In this document: in pieces, positions 39,694 through 64,000 of the stretch | Layout of the letters: each line of letters begins with the position of its first letter | How positions within the stretch are numbered: the stretch's first letter is position 1 | NCBI RefSeq assembly: GCF_018982885.2 | Contig: NZ_CP081848.1 | Location: 1,302,001-1,366,000 of the forward strand | From: Polymorphobacter megasporae | GTDB taxonomy: Bacteria > Pseudomonadota > Alphaproteobacteria > Sphingomonadales > Sphingomonadaceae | DNA length: 64,000 nt | Direction: 5' to 3' | The notes under the pieces: model-generated | Told to the model about the DNA's origin: nothing | Database searches by the model: none | Seen by the model: only the letters and a program-made list of their open reading frames with translations | Made by a program: the position numbers and the translations under genes

Positions 39694-41787
39694 CTAGCGC
39701 CGCGCAGGACCGATCAACGTGTCCTGATTGTCATCGTCATCGTCGTCGAAGTCCGGCGATGACGGTGGCTCAGGTGCTTTGACCACCGTCGTCGTCGGCT
39801 TGGCGTTCGGGGCCAGACCGATTTGCGTCCGGTCCGCAGCCTCATCCCACAAAGACGCGTCGTCGGCCGTGGATTCAGGCTGTGGCTCGGGCTCAGGTTC
39901 TGGAGCCGGCGGAGGAGCGGGCTCGGCAATCGGGGCAGACTCCGGCAGCGGAGGCACGATCTCCTCCACCAGCGCCTCGGGAGCGGCGTGCGGCTCGGCC
40001 GGCTCGGGAGAAATGGCCTCGACTGGCGTAACTGCCGGCTCGATCGGCAGTTCTTCGGGCTCGGGTGAAGTCGGTGCCACCGCTGCGACCGCGACGGCAG
40101 GTGCGATTGCGGCTGGCGGACTGACCGTGGCCGCCGGTGCGCTGACCGGCGTGTCGAGCGCGAGATGCTCGACCGATTCGATCCGTTCCTGCAGCGCGTT
40201 GGCAGCGAGGTTGAAGCTGTCGAACAATTCGCCGAATTCGTCGCGCCGTGTGTGCGAAATGCGGAAGTCGAGATTGCCGCCCGCGACCTCGAGCAGCGCC
40301 GCTTTTGTCCGGCGGAGTGGGACGGCCAGCGCGCGCGCGCCGAAATAGCTGGTCAGCGCCACGCCCCCGACGGTGGTCAGCCCGAGAAAGGCGAGGAGGA
40401 CCTGCGCCAGCCGGGCGGCAGCTTCGAGACTGGCCTTGCTGACCTCGACGTCGACTTGCCCGAAGCTGCGTCCGGCATACGTGATCGGGCGAACAAAGCG
40501 GAACACGCCGGGGCCGCCTGCGACATCCTGCGACAGGACCGTCAGTCCCTCCCGTCGCGAAATGACCTCGCCGGAGTGCGGCGCGGAATACGGCTTGCCC
40601 GCCATCGCTGCGTCGCTCGACGCGTGGACGATGCCATCGGCGCCGACGACGACGATGCGCCGGATCGTCGGGTCGTCGCTGGCGCTGCGGACGAAGGCCT
40701 CGACCGCGAGCCAGTCCTGCTGCGCCCCCGGCAGCGTCGCATTCTCGACCGCCCGGAGAGCGGCATTGCTCGCGACAAACGACGAAATCGCGTCGCCCGA
40801 CGCCAGTGCGACATTCTCCATCGCGGCATATTGGCGCGTCAGCACAGTCCAGATCGCGGCGCCAAGCAGCAGCGCGGTGATGACCGCAAGCATCACCGGC
40901 AGGCGGACCTGAATCGGCAGATAGGCGTGCCGCGCCCCGGCCTCGGCCCCAACTGCGGTCAGCGCGGCGAGTTCCTTGCGCATCGCCTCGGCAAGCTGCC
41001 GCCCATCGGCAAAGCGCATTCCGGGCTGCTTCGACAACAGCTTGGAGACGATGAACTGGAGCCCGCCGGGGGTCGACGGTGCGATCGTCGCCAGCGCATC
41101 GGGGTCGCCCTGGACGATCTGGATCGCCAGCGTTGCCGAGCTGCCGCCCTGGAAGGCGCGCCGTCCGGACAGCATTTCGTACAGCACCGTGCCGACCGAA
41201 AACAGGTCGCTGCGGCCGTCGATCGCGCCGCCGAGCGCCTGTTCGGGGCTCATGTACCGGGGGGTGCCGAGCACCTGACCCGCCTGCGTTCGGACGCTTT
41301 CGGCTTCGAACAGCATATCGCCGACGCGGGCGATGCCGAAATCGAGCAGTTTGACCGAGTGGCCGTCGGGCGCGACGATGATGTTCGACGGCTTGATGTC
41401 GCGGTGGACGACGCGCTGCGAGTGGGCGAAGGCGAGGGCGTCGGCGAGCTGGATGCCAATACGCAGCGTCGTGATCGGGTCGAGTGCGCCGTCTTGCAGA
41501 ACCTGGTCGAGCGGGCGGCCCTCAAGCAGTTCCATCACGATGTACGGCGTGCCATCGGCTTCGCCGACGTCGTAGATCGTGACAATATTGGGGTGGCTCA
41601 GCGCGCCGGCGGCCTTCGCCTCGCGCAGGAAGCGGTCGGCATATTGCCGGTCGCGCAGGAATTCCGCCTTGAGCAGCTTGACCGCAAGCGGCCGTGCGAT
41701 TTGGGGATCGAACGCGCGATAGACGTCGGCCATCGCGCCTTCGCCGATCCGACCTTCGATTCGGTAGCGACCAACGATTTCAAGCAC
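39694..41787 (-). CDS. ppkA: T6SS-associated Ser/Thr protein kinase (PpkA-like)
   Basis: 697 residues from GTG at 41787 (GGGG 8 bases upstream); an ATG at 41856 would add 23 residues but lacks a ribosome site. Kinase domain: IGEGAMADVY, Lys37, HRDIKPSN (Asp130), DFG (149-151) and a GTPRYMSPEQ activation segment. One membrane helix near residues 290-310, a periplasmic domain, a second helix near 475-495, then a HAMP-like segment (RRTKAALLEVAGGNLDF), then a long Pro/Glu/Ala-rich tail. The tail ends with DRTQIG (Thr654) and DTLIG (Thr690). Such kinases turn on T6SS through FHA proteins. The gene is divergent from tssA. Confidence 0.93.
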   Translation of the reverse strand: MLEIVGRYRIEGRIGEGAMADVYRAFDPQIARPLAVKLLKAEFLRDRQYADRFLREAKAAGALSHPNIVTIYDVGEADGTPYIVMELLEGRPLDQVLQDGALDPITTLRIGIQLADALAFAHSQRVVHRDIKPSNIIVAPDGHSVKLLDFGIARVGDMLFEAESVRTQAGQVLGTPRYMSPEQALGGAIDGRSDLFSVGTVLYEMLSGRRAFQGGSSATLAIQIVQGDPDALATIAPSTPGGLQFIVSKLLSKQPGMRFADGRQLAEAMRKELAALTAVGAEAGARHAYLPIQVRLPVMLAVITALLLGAAIWTVLTRQYAAMENVALASGDAISSFVASNAALRAVENATLPGAQQDWLAVEAFVRSASDDPTIRRIVVVGADGIVHASSDAAMAGKPYSAPHSGEVISRREGLTVLSQDVAGGPGVFRFVRPITYAGRSFGQVDVEVSKASLEAAARLAQVLLAFLGLTTVGGVALTSYFGARALAVPLRRTKAALLEVAGGNLDFRISHTRRDEFGELFDSFNLAANALQERIESVEHLALDTPVSAPAATVSPPAAIAPAVAVAAVAPTSPEPEELPIEPAVTPVEAISPEPAEPHAAPEALVEEIVPPLPESAPIAEPAPPPAPEPEPEPQPESTADDASLWDEAADRTQIGLAPNAKPTTTVVKAPEPPSSPDFDDDDDDNQDTLIGPARR

Positions 41788-55647: not shown

Positions 55648-57297
55648 ATGATCAGGCTGCGACTCCATAGCTCCAACGAGCCTTCGCAGCAGCTCGACCA
55701 GCGGATGGTCGGCGAGGACCCGATCACCGTCGGTCGTGATGCCGGAGCGGATTGGGTCATCGCCGATCCCGGCCGGGCGTTGTCGCGGCGGCACTGCACC
55801 GTCCGTGCCGTCGGCGGCAAGATCGGCGTCCGTGACACCAGCGCCAACGGCACCTTCGTCGGCGACGATGGCGAGCGCATCGCCAGCGGCGCCGAGACGC
55901 TCGTCGCGCCCGGCGGGTCGATCCGGCTCGGCACCTTCACGCTGTCGGTCGAGGCGCTCGCCGACGATGCACAACCGGCGAAGGCCCCGGGGTCGTCCGC
56001 GCCGCATGTCTCGCTGTTCGATCCGCCGGCGGGGCTCAATCCGGCGCAGTCGGCGTCGCGCCCGGCGCGGCTCGATCCGTTCGCCAGCCAGCTTCCGCCC
56101 GACCCGTTGCTCGCCGATCACAAGCCGACCGATCGCGTCACGCTCGGCGACGGCGACGCGTGGGACAATCGCCCGGCGGCGCGCGCTGGTGACTGGAAGC
56201 TCCCGCGCGATCGCCCTGAACACGATCAACTGATCGGGACGCCGCGCGAATGGGCCGAACCGGCACGGGTCGAGCGCGACGCCGGGTTCGGCTTCGATGT
56301 GCCATTCGACCGGCCGATCCTGTCGCAGGCCCCGGCGACGCCTGAGCATCTCGCGATCCCCGAGGATTGGGCCGAGCCGGTTGCCGCGCCTGAGGAAAAG
56401 ACAGCGAAGCCGACCAAGCGCGCTGCCGCCAAACGCGCGGTCGCTGCCCCCGTCGAGCCCGAAATCCCCGAAGTCGAGGCCGCTGAGATCGAGACCGTTG
56501 CGGCAGAGCCCCCGGTCATTATGCCCGCACCGCCAGAGCCGGTGAAAGCGCCAACCGTGCCGGTCAAGGCCGCCTTCGAACCGGTTAAAGCAGCGCCCGA
56601 GCCGGTCAGGACGCCGCCCGTAAAGGCACCGCCGCCGCCGAAAGCGCCGCCGCCGGTCCACGCCGAAGCGCCGTCAGCGATGGTCCCCGACGACCTGTTC
56701 GATGCATTCTGCGCCGGTGCGCGGCTGTCGCCGTCGAGCTTCCCCGAAGCCGAACGCGCGGCGGCGATGGTTCGGCTCGGCGAGGTCTATCGCGGCATGG
56801 TGCTTGGCCTCGCCGACCTGATGGGCGAGCGGACCGCGCTCAAAAGCGAATACCGGATGTCGCGGACGATGGTCCGGCCCGAGCAGAACAACCCGTTCAA
56901 ATGGGTCCCGCCGCAGCGGCTCGCGGTCGAGGTCCTGCGCGGGGCCGACATCGGCTTCGCAGGCGGTGCCCAGGCGGTGACCGAGAGCTTTCGCGACATC
57001 AAGACCCATATCTTCTGCGTCCTTGCCGGCATGCGCGCCGCGATCGGCACGACCATGACGACGCTGTCGCCGGCGGCGACCGAGGCCGCGGTCGAGGGCC
57101 GGTCGTTCCTGATCAAGGCGCAGCGCGATGCGGCGTTATGGGTGCAATATGCCGAGCGTTTCGACCGCTTTAAGGTCGATGGCGAGGATGTCGACGGCGT
57201 GATCAATCGCGCTTTCCGCACCGCCTACGAGAAGCAGCTTGCGGAACTCGACGCGAAGGCGGCGGGCTATGACGGGCCGCCACAGGGACAGCATTAG
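55648..57297 (+). CDS. tagH: T6SS FHA-domain protein (TagH)
   Basis: 549 residues; GGGAG before the ATG. The N-terminal FHA domain (about 1-100) keeps the phosphothreonine-binding residues: Arg30 in VGRD, Ser46-Arg47 and His49 in LSRRHC, and Asn67 in SANGTFV. A long Pro/Ala/Glu-rich linker (about 110-350) follows. The C-terminal TagH domain (about 355-540) has LSPSSFPEAERAAAMVRLGE and NNPFKWVPPQRLAVEVL. It is the likely reader of the kinase signal. Its stop overlaps the tssK start. Confidence 0.96.
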   Translation: MIRLRLHSSNEPSQQLDQRMVGEDPITVGRDAGADWVIADPGRALSRRHCTVRAVGGKIGVRDTSANGTFVGDDGERIASGAETLVAPGGSIRLGTFTLSVEALADDAQPAKAPGSSAPHVSLFDPPAGLNPAQSASRPARLDPFASQLPPDPLLADHKPTDRVTLGDGDAWDNRPAARAGDWKLPRDRPEHDQLIGTPREWAEPARVERDAGFGFDVPFDRPILSQAPATPEHLAIPEDWAEPVAAPEEKTAKPTKRAAAKRAVAAPVEPEIPEVEAAEIETVAAEPPVIMPAPPEPVKAPTVPVKAAFEPVKAAPEPVRTPPVKAPPPPKAPPPVHAEAPSAMVPDDLFDAFCAGARLSPSSFPEAERAAAMVRLGEVYRGMVLGLADLMGERTALKSEYRMSRTMVRPEQNNPFKWVPPQRLAVEVLRGADIGFAGGAQAVTESFRDIKTHIFCVLAGMRAAIGTTMTTLSPAATEAAVEGRSFLIKAQRDAALWVQYAERFDRFKVDGEDVDGVINRAFRTAYEKQLAELDAKAAGYDGPPQGQH

Positions 57298-58649
57298 TGT
57301 ATTGGGACAATAAGGTTCTGTGGGCGGAGGGGATGTTCCTCCGCACGCAGCATTTCCAGCAGTTCGAGCGTTACGTCGAACGGACTGCGCAGTCATCCGT
57401 CCGCTGGCTGCAGCCGCTGGCGTGGGGATTTGCCCGGCTCGAGATCGACGATGCCTTGTTGCAGACCGGTATCATCGCGGTCTCGCGCGCATCGGGCATC
57501 CTGCCCGATGGCACGGTCTTTGAAGTTCCCGGCACCGACGACCATCCGATCCCGCTCGACGTCCCCGGCGACCTCAAGAACGTCGTCGTCCATCTGACGC
57601 TGCCGATCCGCCGCGAAGGCGGGACGAGTGCGCGGCTCGCGGCACCGCGCGCCGGTGACGCCGCGGTTCGGTGGACTGGGCAGGAGGTCGAAGTCGGCGA
57701 TACCGTCGCCGGGTCCGAAGCACGCGCGACGCTGATCGTCGGCAAGCTCGAACTGCGCCTGATGCACGACAATCAGGAGCGCGCCGGTTACGTCTCGCTG
57801 CCGCTGTGCCGCCTCGTCGAAAAACGCCTCGACGGGTCGATCGTCCTCGACCCGGCGTTCATCCCGACCTCGCTCAGTTGCGCCGCGTCGGAGCGGCTGA
57901 CGAGCTTCATCGCCGAAATGCGCGGCCTGTTGCAGCATCGCGGTGCGGCGATCGCCAACCGCCTGTCGAGCCAGGGTGGCAAGAGCACCGCCGAAATCAG
58001 CGACTTCCTCGTCCTGATGCTGGTCAACCGCAACGACATGCTGCTGCGCCATCTCGGCTCGCTCCAGGATCTCCACCCCGAGGCGCTGTACCGCACGTTC
58101 GTCGAACTTGCGGGCGAGCTGGCGACCTTCACCGAGGCTGCGACCAACCGTCCGCCGCAACTGCCGCCGTACAACCATGCCGATCTCGCCGGGTCGTTCC
58201 AGCCGCTGATCGGCTTCCTGCGCGAATCGCTGTCGGCGGTGTTCGAGCAGACTGCGATCCCGATCGCCCTCGAGGAACGCGCCTTCGGCATCCGCGTCGC
58301 CAAGATTACCGACCGCTCGCTGTTCACCGACTGCGTCTTCGTCGTCGCCGCAAGGTCGTCGATCGACGCCGAGCTGCTCCGTGCCAACCTGCCGAAGCGA
58401 ACGACGATCGGCGCGGTCGAGCGCATCCGCGATCTCGTCAACCTCCAGCTTGGCGGCGCACCGATTCGCCCGCTGCCCGCCGAGCCACGGCAGATTCCAT
58501 TCCGGTCGGGCATGATCTACTTCGAAATCAACACGCAGTCGGAGGACTGGCGACTGATCGAGCAATCGGGCGGCATCGCCATCCATGTCTCGGGTGACGT
58601 GCCCGATCTCGCGCTCGACCTATGGGCGATCCGGGGCCGCATCCGGTGA
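57297..58649 (+). CDS. tssK: T6SS baseplate protein TssK
   Basis: 450 residues from GTG at 57297, sharing one base with the tagH stop. The family start MYWDNKVLWAEGMFLRTQHF is exact. Later blocks are RLVEKRLDGSIVLDPAFIP and the C-terminal head with PFRSGMIYFEIN. It docks the baseplate onto the TssJLM membrane complex. Its stop overlaps the tssL start (GTGA). Confidence 0.97.
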   Translation: MYWDNKVLWAEGMFLRTQHFQQFERYVERTAQSSVRWLQPLAWGFARLEIDDALLQTGIIAVSRASGILPDGTVFEVPGTDDHPIPLDVPGDLKNVVVHLTLPIRREGGTSARLAAPRAGDAAVRWTGQEVEVGDTVAGSEARATLIVGKLELRLMHDNQERAGYVSLPLCRLVEKRLDGSIVLDPAFIPTSLSCAASERLTSFIAEMRGLLQHRGAAIANRLSSQGGKSTAEISDFLVLMLVNRNDMLLRHLGSLQDLHPEALYRTFVELAGELATFTEAATNRPPQLPPYNHADLAGSFQPLIGFLRESLSAVFEQTAIPIALEERAFGIRVAKITDRSLFTDCVFVVAARSSIDAELLRANLPKRTTIGAVERIRDLVNLQLGGAPIRPLPAEPRQIPFRSGMIYFEINTQSEDWRLIEQSGGIAIHVSGDVPDLALDLWAIRGRIR

Positions 58650-60049
58650 GCCGCAGCCCGTTCACCCCCGACGGGGATCGAACGCAGATCGGCGCCCCGC
58701 CGGGTGGCGACCGGACGGAGATCGGCGCGCCCGGCCCGTTCGATCGTCCGGCCTCGGCACCGCGCCCGAGCGACGACAGCGGCGACCGGACGATGATCGG
58801 GGCGAGCACCGGCGGGGCCATAGCGGCCAGCCCGTTCGCGCCCGCCAAGCTGACGCTCGACCAGCTGCCCTCGGTGGGCGGCAATCCGCTGATCGCGGCG
58901 GGCACGCCGCTGATCGCGCTCGCGGGGGGACTGCGGACCGTTCTCGCGCAACAGGAGACCGGCCGCCTGCGCCGGATCGTCATCGAGGAATTGCGCCGCT
59001 TCCAGGCGCGGACGCGCGAGTCGTCGATCGGCGAGGAGGAAATCCGCTACGGTCATTATGCGCTGTGCGCGCTGCTCGACGAGGTGATCATGTCGACGCC
59101 ATGGGGCGTCGGCACCGGCTGGGGCAAGCAGTCGCTCGTCGCCACTTTCCACAACGAAGTCGTTTCGGGCGACCGCATGTTCGAGGTCGCCGATGCGCTC
59201 GAGGCACGTCCGGGCCGGTCGCCCGCGCTGCTCGAACTGCTGTACGTCTGTTTCTCGTTCGGCTTCGAAGGACGGCTGCGGCTCGAGCGCGGCGGTGCGT
59301 CGAAGCTGCTCCAGCTGCGCGAGCGGCTGTACACCGCGATACGCAACCTGCGCGGACCGATCGAGCGCGAACTGTCGCCGCAGTGGAAGGGGATCGACGC
59401 GGCGTATCGCCCGATCGCCGCCGATATTCCGCTGTGGGTACTGCTTGCCGGGTTCGCCGCGCTGATGCTCCTGATCTACGCCGGCTTCGTCTTCACGCTC
59501 GGGCTGGTCGACGGCAGCGCGCGACCGCTCGGCGCGATCTATGCCGCCGGTCCGGCAAAACTGGCACGCGCGGCCCCTGCGCCGCCGTCGGATAACCGGC
59601 TTTATCTGACGATCCTCGACATCCTCAAGCCCGACATCGACGCCGGGCGTGTCGGCGTCACCGATGACCCCGGTGCGGTCGGTGTGCGGCTACTCGATCG
59701 GGGCTTGTTCGCCAGCGGTTCGGCCGACCTCGACGCCGGTTTCGGCCCGACGATGGGGCGCGTCGCGCAGGCGATCGGCCTCGTCACCGGCCCGGTCGCG
59801 GTCGCTGGACACACCGACGCCCAGCCGATCCGCTCGCTGCGCTTCCCTTCGAACCAGTCGCTGTCCGAAGCGCGCGCTAGTGCGGTCGTCGCCGCTTTGA
59901 CCGCCGCCGGGGTGCCGGGCGACCGGCTCAAGCCGACCGGATACGGCGAGACCCAGCCGATCGCCGACAACAAAAGCGAAAGCGCGCGCCGCCTCAACCG
60001 TCGTGTCGAGGTAACGATCCCAAAGACTTACGCCGAGACCCCGCGCTAA
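58646..60049 (+). CDS. tssL: T6SS membrane protein TssL with OmpA-like domain and Thr-x-Ile-Gly repeats
   Basis: 467 residues from GTG at 58646. The first 55 residues carry DRTQIG, DRTEIG and DRTMIG (Thr13, Thr24, Thr49), spaced by Pro/Gly/Ala-rich linkers. Then the DotU domain (about 70-260; LTLDQLPSVGGNPLIAAGTP), one membrane helix (about 263-288), and a C-terminal OmpA-like peptidoglycan-binding domain (AGHTDAQPI, LSEARASAV, NRRVEV). The N-terminal motifs are likely docking sites for the FHA protein after phosphorylation. Its stop overlaps the tssM start by one base. Confidence 0.95.
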   Translation: MSRSPFTPDGDRTQIGAPPGGDRTEIGAPGPFDRPASAPRPSDDSGDRTMIGASTGGAIAASPFAPAKLTLDQLPSVGGNPLIAAGTPLIALAGGLRTVLAQQETGRLRRIVIEELRRFQARTRESSIGEEEIRYGHYALCALLDEVIMSTPWGVGTGWGKQSLVATFHNEVVSGDRMFEVADALEARPGRSPALLELLYVCFSFGFEGRLRLERGGASKLLQLRERLYTAIRNLRGPIERELSPQWKGIDAAYRPIAADIPLWVLLAGFAALMLLIYAGFVFTLGLVDGSARPLGAIYAAGPAKLARAAPAPPSDNRLYLTILDILKPDIDAGRVGVTDDPGAVGVRLLDRGLFASGSADLDAGFGPTMGRVAQAIGLVTGPVAVAGHTDAQPIRSLRFPSNQSLSEARASAVVAALTAAGVPGDRLKPTGYGETQPIADNKSESARRLNRRVEVTIPKTYAETPR

Positions 60050-63000: not shown

Positions 63001-63663
63001 CAGTTGCTGCCCGAATGCCAGTCTATCGTGAAGGGCGGCTATCCGTTCGGCGGCACCCCGTTGCGGCAGGTTTCGCTCGATGACTTCAGCCGCTTGTTCC
63101 GCCCGTCGGGGCTGCTCGATGCTTTTCAGAAGACGACGCTTGCCGGGCAGATCGATACCGGTGCGGCACGCTGGACGCTGACCCCGTCGGGCAAGGCGCT
63201 CGGGCTCGACCCGGCGGCGGTCGGCCGGTTTCAGGATGCGGCGAAGATCAGCGCCGCGTTTTTCCGGCCCGGCGATATCCGCCCCAATGTGCCGGTTACG
63301 ATCGAGCTTATCCGTCTTGCCGGAGCCCAGTCGGTGACCCTCGTCGTCGGCGGCATCCCCGCGACCTTCGCCGCGAGCGGCGGGCAGCCGGTCGATGTCC
63401 GCTGGCCGGGGAGCCTGCCGGGCGCGTCGATCGGCTTCCAGCGAATTCCCGCCCCGCCGGCCCCCGTGCCGCCGCGAACATGGCCGGGCGAGTGGGGCTT
63501 TGCCGCGATGATGCACGACCTCGGCGGGAGCAGCGCCGACCGCAACGGTGTGATCCTCACCGTCAACGACGGCGCGTTACAGGCGAAGGTCCGACTCCGC
63601 ATCGCGAACAACCCGTTTGCGACGACCAATCTCGCGGCGTTTCAATGTCCGGTGAAATTGTGA
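60049..63663 (+). CDS. tssM: T6SS membrane protein TssM (IcmF)
   Basis: 1204 residues, typical size. Two membrane helices lie near the N-terminus (about 15-70). A cytoplasmic domain has Walker A GPPGAGKTT (135-143), intact here. A third membrane helix is near 456-480, and a large periplasmic part follows with the IcmF-related and DUF1215-like region. An Ala-rich stretch lies near residue 905. It forms the inner ring of the membrane complex with TssL. It overlaps tssL and tagF. Confidence 0.97.
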   Translation: MLYRLRRMFVRRPPRWLMIAVGIVFLALFVWFAGPLVAIAGAVPLGSVVARLVTIAVILGVVGAIWGYRRWRTARRNQAMVDDLAAIPPAAPDDADEDVAAMNERAAQALALMKTTRVGKAKAFIYELPWYLIIGPPGAGKTTALQNAGLDFPVTQSLGDGPVRGIGGTRTIEWWFTDRAVLIDTAGRYTTQDSDKIVDGKAWTGLLDLLKRHRPRQPVTGIIVAISTTDLIGADEAAALAHGRAIRQRLNEVQTAFGLRVPVYVTLTKLDLLAGFTEFFDDLPQSEREQVWGGTFEFVVGTGLNKEAVDETTLGRLFDGLIRRLDERLLLRIQAEPDIARRGLVFGFPQQVVTLRSPLLAMMRIIARETKFEPTPLVRGFYLTSATQFGRPIDRLMNALSARIGVVLATPPGDGPRGRSYFLHDLLTRVVFPEAAIAGRDIKAERRRRAIRLAALGVATAAVVAATMVWTLAYLRNSALITRLEQRADILHRDVTVLGTEPVADSDPLRPLAVLNEARALPFGSAAPAVDRSPGFSWGIGREKALRTQVDGTYVNLLNHQFLPRLLLSVEGELSRLNAQGDAARDPGKAGRAADPRPAIYNLLRIYLMLGRAPGAPLERSAITSYFADRWADLLPAEEQSDTRAALEAHLDTLLASPMTPPALNATLITDARQRIGTLGPGERVYVRMLADQRLRDLSPFALTDVPGIANSRLFLRKSNVPLSTGLPGMFRHGNFYPVVLPTISRYAAQSADEGWVTGERDAGGAGIGRIKDALLTAYLADFTNRWDDFIDDIAVSGERPIRDRIQLATRPPSPVRSLFNTLASETNLTPPSLKQGSSGRNALQVASLFSRNIYRGLQRGNAIGSAIQNGPPGPAGPLDEVIAHFAWLRDMIPPGGAGPLDQALAALGDVGSAGGAAAAAAGMGNPALQAQSSAAAMAATAKLGTVSSTLPPQAGALFEGFVKASATQLNHDARDAVRGQYGAQLLPECQSIVKGGYPFGGTPLRQVSLDDFSRLFRPSGLLDAFQKTTLAGQIDTGAARWTLTPSGKALGLDPAAVGRFQDAAKISAAFFRPGDIRPNVPVTIELIRLAGAQSVTLVVGGIPATFAASGGQPVDVRWPGSLPGASIGFQRIPAPPAPVPPRTWPGEWGFAAMMHDLGGSSADRNGVILTVNDGALQAKVRLRIANNPFATTNLAAFQCPVKL

Positions 63664-64000
63664 CAGCGACCGTCGGCTTCTTCGGCAAGCTGCCCGCGCA
63701 CGGAGACTTTATCCGGCGCGGCCTGCCGACCGCGGCGACCTCTCTGCTCGACGACTGGGTGCAGGCGGGTTTCGGCCGGGCGGATGATCCTGCCGCCGCG
63801 ATCCGCGGCCTGCCGCCGGTGCGCTTCGCGAGCAGCGCAGTCGTCGACGGCGCGCTTTGCCTTGGGACGATGATCGCGAGCAACGACAGCGTCGGACGTG
63901 ATTACGTTCTCGTCGCCGTCCATTTGTCGCCAAACGTGTCTGGGGCGCTGCCCGAGCCGTTGCCTGACGCGTGGGACGATTGGTGCGCCCGCGCCGAGGC
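63660..64000 (+). CDS. tagF: T6SS-associated protein TagF (cut by the right edge)
   Basis: At least 113 residues, still open at the window end. GTG at 63660 overlaps the tssM stop (GTGA); an ATG at 63645 in the same frame would add five residues. The family start TVGFFGKLPAHGDFIRRGLP and the following LLDDWVQAGF match TagF/ImpM. In other systems TagF represses T6SS and can bind the FHA protein. The rest, and what follows, lies outside the window. Confidence 0.92.
   Translation, partial: MTATVGFFGKLPAHGDFIRRGLPTAATSLLDDWVQAGFGRADDPAAAIRGLPPVRFASSAVVDGALCLGTMIASNDSVGRDYVLVAVHLSPNVSGALPEPLPDAWDDWCARAE

Follow-up and report, generated by a model that had tools for sequence, protein, structure and literature searches.

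In the PknB-GarA pair of M. tuberculosis, an FHA protein docks on the autophosphorylated kinase and is itself phosphorylated. Docking goes through the activation loop, with no separate tail motif, and the pair is not part of a secretion system, unlike the T6SS cluster considered here. In the T6SS threonine-phosphorylation pathway the described targets differ. PpkA phosphorylates Fha at Thr362, Thr438 and Thr640 in P. aeruginosa, Serratia and Acidovorax, respectively. In Acidovorax, Fha foci require active PpkA but neither Fha T640 nor TssL, kinase-dead PpkA binds Fha less in pull-down, and PpkA and Fha form condensates; the authors suggested that catalytic residues stabilise the PpkA-Fha contact (PMC12607579). 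P. aeruginosa-type PpkA has a single transmembrane segment (TM) and a periplasmic C-terminus (PMC12607579). In Agrobacterium, PpkA-dependent pT14 of TssL, within the peptide DLPpTVVEI, binds Fha with a weak affinity (Kd about 0.5-1.6 mM), and phosphorylation of Fha was not detected (PMC3953482).

Here we analysed a Polymorphobacter T6SS cluster within a 64,000-nucleotide stretch of DNA (the window). The cluster encodes a divergent kinase, a TssA-like protein, TssB, TssC, a second sheath-like frame, an ImpE-like protein, a TssE-like protein, TssF, TssG, ClpV, Hcp, VgrG, Fha, TssK, TssL, TssM and the start of tagF (Table 1), where T6SS gene names beyond Pfam/TIGRFAM-type matches were assigned by reading the sequence. 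A Hanks-type kinase, an intact Fha as reader, a PppA-like PP2C phosphatase as eraser and TagF are co-encoded with the T6SS, and the kinase stays adjacent to it in relatives. The locus resembles the A. tumefaciens pathway (PMC3953482) in having a kinase, an N-terminal TssL Thr site, Fha R30/S46, TagF and PppA in the T6SS. With P. aeruginosa, Serratia and Acidovorax it shares a membrane kinase, PppA, TagF and an Fha threonine, Thr407, at a matching place and in the context T-x6-NNP[LF]K. The genome has no FHA matches beyond one pair, and only one pair of Hanks kinase matches is full-length; all four belong to its two T6SSs, and a third kinase match is partial. Far from both T6SSs, at C1:521469-522853 (L249), a PP2C domain adjoins a partial Hanks kinase match. 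The second, distant T6SS (C1:3469255-3489000, near 3.47 Mb; L045, L046) encodes a separate set of Fha, kinase and PP2C. QKTVFRPSP and ERTTFQPF are present in the TssL of that system, and ERTVMVS in its kinase, before the kinase domain.

Table 1 Positions of the features discussed, in window coordinates unless marked as genome coordinates.
Feature	Position	Strand	Basis or remark
Hanks-type kinase gene, divergent	39694..41787	-	GTG at 41787, 697 aa
Kinase C-terminal DTLIG, Thr690 (39718-39720)	39709..39723	-	translation; seven residues before C-terminus
Kinase tail DRTQIG, Thr654 (39826-39828)	39817..39834	-	translation; no conservation in aligned relatives
Kinase activation loop T167-Q-A-G	41278..41289	-	form like the TssL motif; RTQAG
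fha/tagH	55648..57297	+	PF00498 1.7e-10, PF20232 6.9e-38, TIGR03354 202 bits
FHA domain	55723..55932	+	R30, S46, R47, H49, N67, G68 intact; Foldseek top match 3po8
Fha Thr407 site RTMVRP, then NNPFKW	56863..56880	+	T in 6/6
tssL	58646..60049	+	GTG start overlapping tssK stop; N-terminus of ~80 residues with motifs
TssL motif 1 DRTQIG, Thr13 (codon 58682-58684)	58676..58693	+	translation, D11 first
TssL motif 2 DRTEIG, Thr24 (codon 58715-58717)	58709..58726	+	translation, D22 first
TssL motif 3 DRTMIG, Thr49 (codon 58790-58792)	58784..58801	+	translation, D47 first
tagF start, runs past window end	63645..64000	+	TagF-like by reading, not family search
PP2C phosphatase (PppA-like), just beyond window	genome C1:1366319-1366861		PP2C family match

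Behind its motif-bearing N-terminus, TssL has a DotU domain (residues 81-282; Pfam PF09850, E 6e-57) and a C-terminal OmpA-like domain (residues 354-452; Pfam PF00691, E 2e-15). A preliminary description of the locus had reported three DRTxIG motifs in TssL, at Thr13, Thr24 and Thr49, and translation confirms their residues and coordinates. Searching the genome (4.89 Mb, both strands) with the back-translated pattern GAYMGNACNNNNATHGGN, and with the pattern read backwards as control, we obtained 16 matches vs 2 for the control. Four of the 16 lie in the T6SS locus, and those of the others whose loci were inspected fall in unrelated or tiny frames. Under a Poisson model with the rest-of-genome rate, finding at least three matches within ~126 bp has p ~5e-12, calculated for a region picked post hoc.

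For conservation we aligned six TssLs and seven kinases from the window, Sphingomonas jatrophae, S. montana, S. sp. CFBP 8760, a lichen Sphingomonadaceae MAG and Caulobacter-like MAGs. The described triple site stands for Thr13, present in 6/6 sequences, and for Thr24, a threonine in 5/6, but Thr49 is confined to the Polymorphobacter window and its closest relative (2/6). R12, T13 and I15 are all invariant and, together with P5, F6 and G10, are among the few N-terminal positions that are invariant in 6/6. Loss of the motifs from close relatives had been named as evidence against a phospho-switch; in Sphingomonas and Caulobacter the motifs are kept. Their copy number turns over fast within the aligned lineage. 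Caulobacter TssL has ERTVIRP and DATQVG at the motif sites, which connects the T-x-I-G and T-x-I-R-P forms. Many TssLs, including many alphaproteobacterial ones, have a (D/N/S)PF tripeptide a few residues before the Thr motif (DDPFG, NPFAE, SPFTP); here it is residues 4-6 (58655-58663).

The suggestion that the Agrobacterium site is multiplied threefold in this TssL is contradicted by the published peptide (PMC3953482), which is a single DLPpTVVEI and differs from the two to three DRTxIG sites found here, and we rejected it. Instead of DLPTVVEI at residue 14, the Polymorphobacter protein has PFTPDGDRTQIG, and what the two share is the place and a T-x-(I/V) core. DRTxIG is therefore another sequence at a comparable place.

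The kinase domain is PknB-like (Pfam PF00069, E 4.5e-44). Its best Foldseek match is M. tuberculosis PknB, and PknB-GarA (6i2p) is among the closest folds for kinase and FHA domain. A hydropathy-based scan places TMs at residues 298-316 and 460-478; between them lies a periplasmic Cache-like sensor (weak sCache match, Pfam), and a HAMP domain follows the second (Pfam, E 3.8e-10). Residues 539-697 are disordered in the AlphaFold model, and because of the two TMs and the HAMP domain the C-terminus is predicted to be cytosolic. In this it differs from P. aeruginosa-type PpkA. It also differs from the kinases of the Agrobacterium-like systems in our survey, ~305-aa frames with neither a TM nor a self-site, whereas the Cache-HAMP kinase has a site in its tail. 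The lack of a self-site in these small kinases speaks against the shared mark proposed below.

Translation also bears out that the kinase ends with DRTQIG (Thr654) and DTLIG (Thr690). Of the proposed motif copy on the kinase tail, the Thr690 site is upheld by the alignment: Thr690 is the sole conserved one among ten tail threonines and occurs in 7/7 Sphingomonas and Caulobacter kinases, in the variants DTLIG, GTVIG, STVTG, HTLVG, STLAG and, twice, RTVIS. Thr654 is private to the window sequence among the seven kinases. Over the 153 positions of the tail, only P558, D686, T690 and P694 are invariant.

Similar sites overlooked by the preliminary description are found in the kinase activation loop and at Fha Thr407. 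The loop, RTQAG here, has TQIG in 5/6 relatives and TQVG in 1/6; several other T6SS kinases have TVIG, and Pseudomonas-like kinases have DDRTQF in the loop while their TssL has DRTQF. This common form suggests that the motif may mimic the kinase autophosphorylation site. The same likeness agrees with another reading, in which the motif would be a mere kinase substrate consensus that copies the activation loop, the tail would be autophosphorylated without Fha docking, and Fha would read TssL only. We consider this unlikely: the tail threonine is conserved in all seven kinases in an otherwise turning-over tail, and membrane kinases of differing architecture have a site on their cytosolic side (see below), a pattern suggestive of more than autophosphorylation by chance. 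The activity-dependent PpkA-Fha binding in Acidovorax (PMC12607579) likewise favours docking and is what a self-marked kinase would predict; a kinase self-mark may be an alternative to the proposed contact through catalytic residues.

Fha is composed of an N-terminal FHA domain, a long linker and a T6SS_FHA_C domain; a sequence search of Fha against the PDB returned no match. It was rightly described as an FHA protein with intact phosphothreonine-binding residues, as R30, S46, R47, H49, N67 and G68 are kept across aligned relatives and R30 and S46 are invariant. In Agrobacterium Fha, the pThr-binding residues that were mutated are likewise numbered R30 and S46; in contrast to that protein, in which phosphorylation was not detected (PMC3953482), Fha here has a candidate Thr site. 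The context of Thr407, RT-x6-NNPFKW, is conserved in relatives (RTMVRPEQNNPFKW here) and agrees with the Fha1 Thr362-type pattern of a threonine ~135 residues from the C-end followed by NNP[LF]K. With 142 residues to the C-end, a distance similar to the 134-135 in Pseudomonas-like proteins, Thr407 probably corresponds to P. aeruginosa Fha1 Thr362; how exactly the two match depends on the length that we assume for Fha1. In FHA-bearing kinase-less systems (n=6), LQPIEDNPL replaces the Fha Thr site. The Fha linker contains a second box, at residues ~193-203, with (Q/E)LIGTPxxW or VIGAPxxW, which is conserved lineage-wide and whose motif position is mostly without Thr.

For the wider survey, DotU-bearing loci were taken from ~500 genomes belonging to this class and phylum, and 60 loci were read, 21 of them with wider flanks. 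Systems were called kinase-less when no kinase was found in the stretches read; compared with the first 20-kb stretches, the wider flanks moved L138, L152, L166, L182 and L189 to the kinase-bearing group. Kinase-bearing T6SSs across Proteobacteria have T-x-(I/V/F/L)-x-P near the TssL N-terminus, as in DRTILRPRPG, NRTVIRPNPG, DRTQFMPRPG and DKTVFGGP/DRTVIGG, while kinase-less ones are at about chance level. A loose [polar]T-x-phi motif occurs in 31/37 kinase-bearing TssLs vs 11.1 expected from shuffling, and in 7/18 kinase-less TssLs vs 4.9 expected. The p-value for the association of motif with kinase presence (Fisher p=0.0014) is optimistic, as survey genomes are related and motif and kinase labels cluster by lineage on the tree, so that the observations are not independent; row S_G085b of that tree is a fragment. 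T-x-phi-x-P motifs being widespread on TssL, we rejected the idea of a sphingomonad oddity. A literature text search for 'TVIRP' matched no T6SS paper. FHA domains mostly take their specificity from the pT+3 residue. That residue is G in the Polymorphobacter motifs and R, M, K or another one elsewhere, which counts against the reading preferred below.

In tension with that reading, too, kinase and TssL motif do not always occur together. Motifs with no kinase found nearby are present in L149, G095 and G104, and kinase-bearing systems without TssL motif are the Serratia-like L152 and L166 as well as L159 and L168. The Serratia-like systems, with kinase and Fha, agree with Fha Thr438 as the sole reported target in S. 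marcescens (PMC6082577).

The motif definitions were shaped during inspection of TssL, which makes a test on kinases with the TssL-written regex the cleanest. We applied it to 24 TM kinases of the survey from outside the window-kinase family, with TMs called by hydropathy and the periplasmic parts as internal control. Cytosolic parts contain 17 motif sites in 3066 residues vs 2.9 expected, and periplasmic parts contain 5 in 7561 residues vs 9.1 expected (p=2e-7, again optimistic for related genomes). An earlier kinase regex had been adjusted after inspection; the rerun with the TssL regex left the outcome unchanged. For six sphingomonad kinases the counts are 5 cytosolic sites vs 0.7 expected and 1 periplasmic site vs 2.0 expected. 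HAMP kinases, with their cytosolic C-terminus, have the motif in the C-terminal tail; in single-TM kinases it precedes the kinase domain or sits between that domain and the TM. In sphingomonads, kinases belonging to the other T6SS type carry it N-terminal to the kinase domain (DDKTVIRP, DDRTVFQP, EERTVFMP, ERTVMVS). In a second alphaproteobacterial lineage, the Cache-HAMP T6SS kinases of L143 and L144 have tails with DATLISP/DATLIAP, and the TssLs are without the strict motif.

These distributions also bear on whether the boxes are phosphorylated at all. As they lie within Gly/Pro-rich stretches and their sequence is only loosely constrained across the phylum, they could be low-complexity repeats or an unphosphorylated structural element of the TssL N-terminus. 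This seems very improbable to us, given the association of the motif with the kinase, its cytosolic enrichment in kinases, the threonine conserved in a diverged kinase tail and the pThr demonstrated at a comparable place in Agrobacterium (PMC3953482).

The reading that we prefer, and regard as fairly probable, treats the T-x-I-G boxes as copies of a single short linear motif that depends on phosphorylation: the cluster kinase would write it, the FHA domain would read it, and both the kinase and TssL would bear the mark. Upon a periplasmic signal, the Cache-HAMP kinase would autophosphorylate its activation loop (T167-Q-A/I-G) and tail Thr690 (here also Thr654). The FHA domain would bind the phosphorylated kinase in the manner of GarA and PknB, and Fha would gather at the membrane. 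The same kinase would phosphorylate TssL Thr13 and Thr24 (here Thr49 too), providing two to three docking sites that may hold Fha on the TssL-TssM complex. Fha Thr407, with its similar sequence, could be a third kinase target, and PppA and TagF would counteract the phosphorylation pathway. Phosphorylation, FHA binding and the order of events we infer from sequence. As a hypothesis, a phospho-switch with TssL Thr13/Thr24, kinase Thr690 and Fha Thr407 as candidate conserved sites is well supported: motif constraint in relatives, wide sharing of the motif between TssL and the cytosolic side of kinases and the co-encoded writer, reader and eraser partly bear out the initial proposal, several of whose specifics were corrected.

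The weak single-site affinity in Agrobacterium (PMC3953482) counts against the preferred reading, though it would also be a reason for having several copies. Their multiplicity might even be the function, with several pThr on TssL, kinase and Fha driving multivalent Fha condensation at the membrane. This overlaps with our preferred reading and differs in the purpose of the copies, which would not be one-to-one docking. It fits the weak affinity, the PpkA-Fha condensates of Acidovorax (PMC12607579) and the two or three TssL motif copies that are also found in several other lineages, but one copy suffices in many kinase-bearing systems and copy number turns over rapidly in this lineage; we see it as possible, if rather doubtful.

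More tentatively, and with less than even confidence, the motif as a mark on both kinase and TssL may be extended to a general T6SS phospho-code, in which an activation-loop-like motif is placed on the cytosolic side of the membrane kinase, at whichever end that is, on TssL and on Fha. The autophosphorylated kinase would recruit Fha first and then pass it on to TssL, where it would mark the same motif. In the P. aeruginosa, Serratia and Acidovorax models Fha is the substrate, whereas here TssL has candidate sites too; if true, the code would unite the 'Fha is substrate' and 'TssL is substrate' versions of the pathway, and active sites would be predictable from sequence across Proteobacteria. 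Through the conserved self-motif of the kinase, Fha recruitment can be probed one residue at a time.

L187 (G481) is an independent multi-copy case: its TssL has TVFGG, TVIGG and TWLGG, and its kinase has N-terminal DKTQIAP and DRTEIAP. L182 (G438) contains two different TssL genes within ~14 kb and therefore probably represents two T6SSs.
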